The notes under the pieces are model-generated. The model was not told the origin of the DNA, searched no databases, and worked only from the letters and a program-made list of their open reading frames with translations. The position numbers and the translations under genes are program-made. Positions 6,622 to 55,671 of a stretch of 64,000 bases of DNA are shown here, piece after piece. The stretch covers positions 27,667-91,666 of the forward strand of contig JAEEQB010000012.1 in assembly GCA_016285075.1 (NCBI GenBank), read 5' to 3'. Numbering within the stretch: the stretch's first letter is position 1; every line of letters starts with the position of its first letter. This DNA is from Prevotella sp. GTDB lineage: Bacteria; Bacteroidota; Bacteroidia; Bacteroidales; Bacteroidaceae.

Positions 6622-6635
6622 TACTTTTGTCTTGC

Positions 6636-6773
6636 TTGAAATTACTCAAACTAATGCGCTATTTTACTCGCTTATTCGTACCTTTGAGCTTTGCTCGAAA
6701 ATAGGCTGCATCTCGGAAAACCAAAAGAAAAATGCTTTTCTTTTGGTTTTTCGCTCGATTTGCACTACCTTTG
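6636..6773. repeat. Direct repeat unit copy 1 (promoter-bearing intergenic repeat)
   Basis: ~114-138 bp nearly identical to 6797-6937, e.g. CGCTTATTCGTACCTTTGAGCTTTGCTCGAAAATAGGCTGCATCTCGGAAAACCAAAAG. Confidence 0.9.
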
Positions 6774-6796
6774 ACTTGTTGTCTTAGGTACTCACT

Positions 6797-6937
6797 CTCG
6801 AAAATACTCAAATTTATTTGGTATTTTGCTCGCTTATTCGTACCTTTGAGCTTTGCTCGAAAATAGGCTGCATCTCGGAAAACCAAAAGAAAAATTGCTT
6901 TTCTTTTGGTTTTTCGCTCGATTTGCACTACCTTTGC
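6797..6937. repeat. Direct repeat unit copy 2, ends ~20 bp before ffh
   Basis: See copy 1; carries TACCTTTG next to the ffh start. Confidence 0.9.
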
Positions 6938-20957: not shown

Positions 20958-21019
20958 ATCATGGGGACAGGTTTTTGAATGAATTCACGTGAATTCATTC
21001 AAAAACCTGTCCCCATGAT
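20958..21019. repeat. REP-like perfect 62-bp palindrome
   Basis: ATCATGGGGACAGGTTTTTGAATGAATTCAC | GTGAATTCATTCAAAAACCTGTCCCCATGAT, no spacer. Confidence 0.97.
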
Positions 21020-21070
21020 TCTGTTTGTTTGATGCCATCGAATAAAAATACTAGATATTGTTTGCTATTA

Positions 21071-21092
21071 TCAAACAAATTTATTACCTTTG
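21071..21092 (+). promoter_or_regulatory. Candidate -7 promoter element upstream of the ATPase gene
   Basis: ATTACCTTTG, TAnnTTTG consensus. Confidence 0.4.
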
Positions 21093-21132
21093 CCCTTGAT
21101 TTGATGATGTCTTGATAATATTGTGTTCTATT

Positions 21133-22401
21133 ATGGCAATAACGAAAGAAACGTTCCGTACCCTGATTCATGAGGGACAGGAGGAGATAAGAGACGTGGA
21201 ACTCTACGACCGTCCGTTTGAGTTCGAAGAGAATGGACGCTATGTGCTTGTTGGTGTTCGACAGGCTGGTAAGTCATATATGCTGTACAAACGTGCCCGA
21301 CAGATGATGGCGGCAGGCTATCAGTTAGAGGATATGGTGTATATCAACTTTGACGATGAGCGTCTGATGGGCTTGACGGCAGACGAACTTGACCTTATTC
21401 TACAAGCCTATCAGTCTGTTTACAATCGCATACCTGTTTTTTTCTTTGATGAGATACAAAACGTGGATGGTTGGGAACATTTTGTCCGACGTTTGGCCAA
21501 CAAGAAATATCATGTCTATGTCACTGGCAGCAATGCCAAGATGCTGAGTCGCGATATACAGACAGTTCTTGGCGGTCGCTTCCTCGATGCACTCATATAT
21601 CCCTACAGCTTTTCAGAATATTTGGAGGCAAAGGGAGTAGCATTGGAAAAGGAATGGCAGTACGGCCGTCAGCGTGCCATCGTACAACAAGCCTTTGTGG
21701 ATTATATGAAGTGGGGCGGTTTCCCGGAACTGCTGTTATTCCGCAACAAACGCACTTGGCTTAACGGCCTCTACGAAAAGATTCTATTGGGTGACATCAT
21801 TCTGCGCAACAAGGTAAAAAACGAGATGGCATTACGACTGACCATGAAGCGATTCGCAGAAAACGTCATGCAGCCAATATCATATAATCGCGTTGCCAAC
21901 CTGATTCGCTCTACAGGAACAAGTATCGCCGTTTCTTCCGTCAGCGACTATGTACGTTATGCGCAGGAAGCCTGCATGTTGTTCTCATTGGAGAACTATG
22001 CTTCGAAGTTTGTGGAGAAAGAGACGGTGAAGAAGCACTATTTTGTAGATAATGGCCTGCTGAGCATTTTCCTCTTTAGCGGCGAAACTGCTCTGCTGGA
22101 AAATCTTTGCGCCATACACCTGCGCAAGAAATATGGTGATGAACTATGTTTCTACAATAAGAACATAGAGGTGGACTTCCTTGTAGCTGAAGAAGGCTAT
22201 GCCGTTCAAGCTTCCTATTCCATCTATGGTGAGGGCATGCAAGAAACTTTCGAACGTGAAACCAAGGCATTGAAGCAGTTGGATGCCTTTCTCTCAATGA
22301 AGCGTATGGTGATTGTCACTTACGACGAAGAGGGTACGGTGTCTTTAGATAACGGTAAGCTGATTGAGGTAATTCCTGCCTGGAAATGGCTGCTTGAATA
22401 A
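21133..22401 (+). CDS. AAA+ ATPase with C-terminal DUF4143-like domain
   Basis: Walker A GVRQAGKS, Walker B VFFFDEIQN, VTGSNAKMLS, EVDFLV near C-terminus. Confidence 0.88.
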   Translation: MAITKETFRTLIHEGQEEIRDVELYDRPFEFEENGRYVLVGVRQAGKSYMLYKRARQMMAAGYQLEDMVYINFDDERLMGLTADELDLILQAYQSVYNRIPVFFFDEIQNVDGWEHFVRRLANKKYHVYVTGSNAKMLSRDIQTVLGGRFLDALIYPYSFSEYLEAKGVALEKEWQYGRQRAIVQQAFVDYMKWGGFPELLLFRNKRTWLNGLYEKILLGDIILRNKVKNEMALRLTMKRFAENVMQPISYNRVANLIRSTGTSIAVSSVSDYVRYAQEACMLFSLENYASKFVEKETVKKHYFVDNGLLSIFLFSGETALLENLCAIHLRKKYGDELCFYNKNIEVDFLVAEEGYAVQASYSIYGEGMQETFERETKALKQLDAFLSMKRMVIVTYDEEGTVSLDNGKLIEVIPAWKWLLE

Positions 22402-22407
22402 CATCAC

Positions 22408-22460
22408 TGGGGACAGGTTTTTGAATGAATTCAGCGAATTCATTCAAAAACCTGTCCCCA
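22408..22460. repeat. REP-like palindrome, second copy, 7 nt after the ATPase stop
   Basis: TGGGGACAGGTTTTTGAATGAATTC AGC GAATTCATTCAAAAACCTGTCCCCA; arms identical to 20958-21019. Confidence 0.97.
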
Positions 22461-22467
22461 TGATCTC

Positions 22468-22545
22468 TCAATCAAATGATTCCACAATCTCGCTCTCGCT
22501 CAACTTGTAGATTGAGAAGCGTTCCAGAAACTCAAAGTCCACCAT
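22468..22545 (-). pseudogene. Possible N-terminal stub of a GNAT-type toxin truncated at the REP-like element
   Basis: MVDFEFLERFSIYKLSESEIVESFD*; resembles the FDCGDxDLxxF start of Bacteroidales GNAT toxins; downstream of the antitoxin-like ORF. Confidence 0.4.
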
Positions 22546-22550
22546 GAATA

Positions 22551-22703
22551 TCAGAAGTTTGCGGTTGCCCTAAGTGTCTTGTAAATCATATCCATCTCGG
22601 CTCTTTCTTCAACCGAAATACGGCGCCGCTCCTGCATCCGTGCCTCAAAGCGTCGTGCGTCCTCACCGTAAAGGATTGGGGTTTCTTTTATCGGTCTTGC
22701 CAT
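22551..22703 (-). CDS. Small antitoxin-like protein, 50 aa
   Basis: MARPIKETPILYGEDARRFEARMQERRRISVEERAEMDMIYKTLRATANF; resembles short Bacteroidales ORFs upstream of GNAT toxins; below the ORF-track cutoff. Confidence 0.55.
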   Translation of the reverse strand: MARPIKETPILYGEDARRFEARMQERRRISVEERAEMDMIYKTLRATANF

Positions 22704-23356: not shown

Positions 23357-23431
23357 GAGAATCAGGGGGACAGGTTTTTGAATGAAACCATAAAATGGAT
23401 TTCACTTCAAAAACCTGTCCCCCTGATTCTC
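23357..23431. repeat. REP-like hairpin, third copy
   Basis: GAGAATCAGGGGGACAGGTTTTTGAA / TTCAAAAACCTGTCCCCCTGATTCTC, 26-bp perfect stem; pairing continues in the tip. Confidence 0.93.
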
Positions 23432-55269: not shown

Positions 55270-55595
55270 TTTTGTTAGGTTTATGTTAGATAATAAGTAA
55301 TTTCGTTGCAAAGGTACAAATAAGTGCGAACAAAACAAAACTTTTTCTCATGATTCTTCACGTCATGCTGATATCCTTTGGGAAATAATCACATGAGTCA
55401 AGATTCGGAGTCACTTTAGAATTTGGGTGTTCAATGTGATGTACCCAATTTCCGCTTATAAAACACTACAATTAGGTTAAATGTGACTCTATGGATGACT
55501 TATACTGATTTCGGTGACCCTTTTTCAATTTGGTTTTAAACATGATTCGGAATTCTTGACAAATCAGGAAGGCCCGGAAATGGTTATTTTCAATC

Positions 55596-55671
55596 CAGTT
55601 AACTCACTCAATTAATTGAGTTAACTCAAACGATCAATCGAGTTAACTCAAACGACTGATCGAGTTAACTC
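55596..55671. repeat. Four [G/C]AGTTAACTC palindromes at exact 22-bp period
   Basis: Sites at 55596, 55618, 55640, 55662; last two spacers AAACGATCAATC and AAACGACTGATC. Confidence 0.95.

Follow-up and report, generated by a model that had tools for sequence, protein, structure and literature searches.

A solitary gene for an AAA_14/DUF4143 ATPase lies between two near-identical palindromes in the 64-kb stretch of DNA analysed here, and this arrangement raises the question whether the palindromes bound a mobile unit that carries the gene or belong to a repeat family with a history of its own. The whole stretch (hereafter the window) corresponds to bases 27667-91666 of contig 67 in a genome of 4.33 Mb (101 contigs, 97.7% complete). 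The closest named relatives of the RluD protein encoded downstream of the ATPase gene are from rumen Prevotella and Xylanibacter ruminicola (best identity 85%). We consider it highly likely that the palindromes are TIRYT-type repeats (TIRYT, terminal-inverted-repeat tyrosine transposase) around an ATPase gene that moves independently of them. Coordinates are collected in Table 1.

Table 1. Features at the ATPase locus (window positions) and transposase relics elsewhere in the same genome (G000).
Feature	Position	Strand	Details
Left palindrome, TIR/REP-like element	20958..21019	.	62 bp, two perfect 31-nt arms
ATPase promoter region	21024..21132	+	two similar upstream elements (TTTGTTTGATGCCATCGAATAAAAA, TTGTTTGCTATTATCAAACAAA) and TATTACCTTTG; aligns with four other species
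AAA_14 + DUF4143 ATPase gene	21133..22401	+	Pfam AAA_14 E 2e-32, DUF4143 E 8.5e-12
Right palindrome, TIR/REP-like element	22408..22460	.	53 bp, two perfect 25-nt arms and 3-nt tip
Truncated start of GNAT toxin-like gene	22471..22545	-	reading stops at right-palindrome edge
Antitoxin-like gene (MARPIKETPILYGEDARRFE...)	22551..22703	-	intact antitoxin + GNAT pair in L338
Third palindrome, same family	23357..23431	.	75 bp, subtype with CCATAAAATGG tip
Y1-group transposase relic	G000:C18:51985-52349		middle missing
Y1-group transposase relic	G000:C69:793-960		C-terminal piece

The first-pass annotation had reported two near-identical palindromes bracketing the ATPase gene, and the positions, arms and tips were all confirmed. 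The 25-bp arms are identical in the left and right palindromes, the tips differ, and the right palindrome starts 7 nt after the stop codon of the ATPase gene. The first-pass annotation had overlooked the third palindrome, 0.9 kb downstream of the bracket. Folded as single-stranded DNA with 2 nt of flank, the left palindrome reaches -33.1 kcal/mol (z = -13.3) and the right one -28.2 kcal/mol (z = -12.0). With up to three mismatches allowed, the 21-mer GGGGACAGGTTTTTGAATGAA has six matches in the window, as compared to 0.00 in shuffled sequences. Other repeats in the window are a direct repeat of 117 nt with 87% identity and internal palindromes (6635-6913), and short inverted and direct repeats clustered around GAGTTAACTC (55592-55670).

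The palindromes belong to a large family in this genome. The 21-mer occurs 69 times genome-wide, and ATCANGGGGACAGGTT has 71 and 73 matches on the two strands (about 143 arms), with none for the reversed control. In the fetched regions of the genome, the arms were grouped into at least 66 element places. Arms start with (G)AATCAN/GATCAN-GGGGACAGG; subtypes vary at the base preceding GGGG and at the tip, and some copies are nested within others. Among the papers listed by a literature search on the letters GGGGACAGG, none was relevant.

Elements are located between genes, preferentially behind them. None of the called genes contained an element (n = 66 places), and 61 places were attributable to a gap flanked by called genes on both sides; the median distance was 24 nt to the 3' end of a gene and 226 nt to a 5' end. 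Elements were present in 17 of 35 convergent, 30 of 179 tandem and 8 of 30 divergent gaps, shares that are inflated by a sample chosen around elements; genes in these fetched regions were called with a simple custom caller. Several gaps hold two elements each, and in the densest cluster about 16 elements alternate with single genes of ordinary function over 24 kb of contig 41 (L034, 0-24 kb). Adjacent copies shared a subtype more often than under shuffled labels (13 versus 7.2, P = 0.013, and 11 versus 6.0, P = 0.022, uncorrected for two tests), a pattern expected from local hopping or local duplication. Clustering, shared subtypes and placement near 3' ends fit local hopping into gene gaps. 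No target duplication was readable at the palindromes.

An intact transposase is associated with this palindrome in a related species. A search of the own genome with Pfam Y1_Tnp gave nothing above the cut-off in the 101-contig assembly, in which a copy could fall into a gap. Y1_Tnp was found in many relatives, and in several of them inverted repeats with GGGGACAG at their head lie on both sides of the transposase gene. A profile made from six such proteins detected only two decayed relics in the own genome, each with a different repeat type at its flanks (GGGGTCGG... and AGGGGACTCTGATC), neither of them the present palindrome. The scan for a RAYT/IS200-like transposase suggested in the first-pass annotation thus turned up two dead genes, and none over the Y1_Tnp cut-off. 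The 15-mer GGGGACAGGTTTTTG is present in 25 of 399 genomes of the genus, 15 of which were checked for the transposase, and the longer repeat pattern in 3 of 60 related genomes. In one genome of the same genus, a single contig (G140), an intact Y1 transposase gene (C1:1135484-1136278) lies between two palindrome copies that are 92-94% identical to the host copies over 63 bp and share the exact 21-mer; in another (G093), an intact transposase gene lies between variant copies. The link to Y1 transposases that had been proposed for the palindromes is therefore borne out in kind. Neither a genome with 30 copies of the 15-mer (G200) nor one with 7 copies that is only 73% complete (G124) had a match to the transposase profile; high repeat copy number without a transposase gene occurs more than once, with the incompleteness of the latter genome as a caveat.

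Two known classes of repeats come into question. TIRYTs have been described (Di Nocera et al., 2013, PMC3733652) as proteins of the RAYT type between inverted repeats that have GGGGWSAS in common; some of these repeats also make up families at a distance from the gene, with solitary as well as clustered copies. Most TIRYTs fall in TnpA_Y1 subclass 2.1 (PMC6006769). The GGGGWSAS motif is matched by GGGGACAG in every arm of the present family (by construction of the search). TIRYT (TIRtron) transposases exceed the usual RAYTs in length, and those of subclass 2.1 have a C-terminal part resembling a helix-turn-helix. The related-species proteins found here have about 265-283 aa, with NHVH and YIHQNP motifs and Y1_Tnp E-values mostly of 1e-11 to 1e-12. 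C-terminal helix-turn-helix matches in the transposase are weak (MarR_2 E 0.087, HTH_31 E 0.22), and the curated REP transposase model NF047646 gave 62-67 bits for the related-species proteins, below its cut-off of 80. The Y1/HUH gene between inverted repeat copies that characterizes TIRYTs is found in G140 and G093, and not in the own genome. Unlike known TIRYTs, the present family has its many arms spread over dozens of places with no intact transposase assembled, and its elements are complete palindromes, often with further copies nested inside.

Canonical GTAG REPs with their RAYTs are likewise short intergenic palindromes tied to a Y1 transposase. REPs favour convergent and co-directional gaps and are found more often behind genes (PMC3733652), and the order of gap types in the host agrees with the REP order in that study. 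However, the present elements have no GTAG/GGAG foot (GT[AG]G in 7 of 153 upstream flanks), and an assignment to canonical GTAG REPs was rejected for this reason. Because of the GGGGACAG head, the length of the HUH transposase and the missing foot, we would file the palindromes, on sequence features, as TIRYT-type repeats. They would then represent a large TIR family, apparently an orphan, of an already known kind.

The ATPase gene is a unit with edges of its own. Translation most likely starts at the ATG at 21133. The candidate promoter proposed in the first-pass annotation, TTACCTTTG, is credible, as this stretch and the upstream elements line up with positions that are conserved in four further species. 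Two similar elements at window 21024-21095 (TTTGTTTG-TG--ATC-AATAAAA) are conserved in other species and could possibly serve as an operator for self-regulation of the ATPase. Homologues with 91%, 89% and 76% identity are present in three other species at unrelated sites, and a partial copy with 86% identity in a fourth. DNA homology to the three species begins at window 21024, just past the left palindrome, and ends at 22404-22406, so that its edges lie within 3-4 bp of both palindromes. In two genomes without a palindrome there (G190 and G023), homology spans 21024 to 22404, with 4-5 bp to the left palindrome and 3-4 bp to the right one, and two homologue-bearing species have identical edges in common, again without any palindrome. 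Because palindrome-free species show the same edges, the edges appear to be a property of the gene unit, from the duplicated promoter element to the stop codon, and not of the palindromes. Elsewhere, the homologues do not adjoin the genes that flank the unit in the window, those for a histidine kinase and RluD. Domain order and length are those of known AAA_14/DUF4143 ATPase genes; compared to these, nothing is unusual except the solitary, position-independent occurrence with an own promoter.

Bracketing by palindromes is probably not a mark of cargo. The first-pass annotation had considered that palindromes scattered with no enrichment as flanking pairs would speak against a cargo unit. Such a pattern was not observed, as 8 single-gene brackets were seen in the fetched regions versus 1-2 under random placement (60-80 elements among 3300 gaps, with 3300 genes assumed), alongside clustering at all scales. 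Accessory content alone, as expected for cargo, was not found: the bracketed genes include those for BipA/TypA, acetate kinase (at the end of contig 28), a GH43 enzyme, a LytTR regulator, an ACT-domain protein and an S24 peptidase. In G331, the closest relative identified (51 genomes remained unscored for the DNA query with the BipA region), BipA adjoins a convergent fucose-pyrophosphorylase/GHMP-kinase gene across a different short spacer that has no palindrome. Since the bracketed set is mixed and includes BipA/TypA, and since the site in this relative is palindrome-free, bracketing is probably a by-product. Searches for an empty site by way of the downstream RluD gene (80 genomes, up to 7 kb of flank) and the upstream histidine kinase gene (29 relatives, about 1.5 kb of flank) found neither the ATPase gene nor a conserved gene order, and no same-locus empty site that would date the ATPase insertion was found in these neighbourhoods.

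The first-pass annotation had considered plausible a transposase acting in trans that moves the whole segment from palindrome to palindrome as one unit. The two palindromes are indeed of the same subtype and hug the edges of ATPase homology, single-gene brackets exceed the random expectation, the transposase gene itself lies between two such palindromes in G140 and G093, and three palindromes on contig 65 enclose two small gene pairs whose upstream regions of about 150 bp are nearly identical. Nevertheless, we regard this explanation as very unlikely and the cargo claim as unsupported, given that other species have homologues with these edges and no palindrome, that conserved housekeeping genes are among those bracketed, that palindromes also cluster with no intact gene in between, and that the two palindromes differ in their tips. 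The more general proposal that the palindromes delimit cassettes of single genes or toxin-antitoxin pairs that are mobilised in trans, with a transposase of this group carrying host genes, seems likewise very unlikely to us. The gene pairs on contig 65 (L042:10085-11996) encode a PIN_3 protein with a 73-aa partner, and proteins of 98 and 75 aa without Pfam match; the genes differ despite the near-identical upstream regions.

If the palindromes served the host as RNA elements where transcripts end (3' stabilisers or two-way terminators), their position beside genes would be accounted for, and the short distance to 3' ends, the preference for convergent gaps (in a sample picked around elements) and the very stable hairpins are consistent with such a use. 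However, neutral tolerance predicts the same placement, no T run follows the palindromes in the window, and the left palindrome lies upstream of the ATPase promoter. Moreover, most relatives all but lack the pattern (3 of 60 genomes; 25 of 399 for the shorter pattern), which is therefore not in general use across the genus. We consider this explanation improbable.

Recombination between scattered palindromes, and not transposition, could have joined the ATPase unit to the broken antitoxin/GNAT-toxin pair on its right, which the first-pass annotation had missed. The first 25 codons of the GNAT toxin-like gene are left, and the frame ends with SFD where the outer arm of the palindrome begins; an intact antitoxin and GNAT pair on a viral contig reads SFDCGD at the break point. 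A plasmid search with the antitoxin gave no match, and the missing GNAT half was not found in the parts of the own genome that were searched, a coverage that limits its weight as evidence for recombination. The right palindrome thus marks a breakpoint. Insertion followed by deletion yields an identical picture, and we regard recombination as a possible but unlikely origin of this junction. Both transcript-end use and recombination are compatible with TIRYT-type repeats around an independent gene, and our confidences in the several readings therefore need not add up to one.

Together, the above observations are best explained by high-copy, short mobile elements of the TIRYT kind, that is, terminal inverted repeats of a Y1/HUH tyrosine transposase related to REP/RAYT systems. 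We infer that a transposase now missing from the assembled genome spread the palindromes through hairpins in single-stranded DNA, that copies landed by local hopping in gene gaps, preferably downstream of stop codons and in many cases close to a copy already present, and that the transposase was subsequently lost. The ATPase gene would be a separate, solitary gene that moves alone as a promoter-plus-gene unit, and it would have come to lie between two palindromes because the gaps on both sides tolerate insertions and because copies cluster. The tight fit of the palindromes at the edges of ATPase homology counts against this reading, as do the lack of an intact transposase in the assembled genome, the lack of a readable target duplication and the finding that neither neighbour gene keeps its surroundings in relatives, none of which shows this locus as it was before insertion.

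For the interpretation of similar loci, near-identical palindromes on either side of a gene are weak evidence of a mobile unit. The present repeats extend the TIRYT group, which has been little studied, by a large family in rumen Prevotella. The transposase persists together with two repeats in one related species, and the host has many copies and only dead relics, which makes for a natural test of repeat persistence after loss of the mobiliser.
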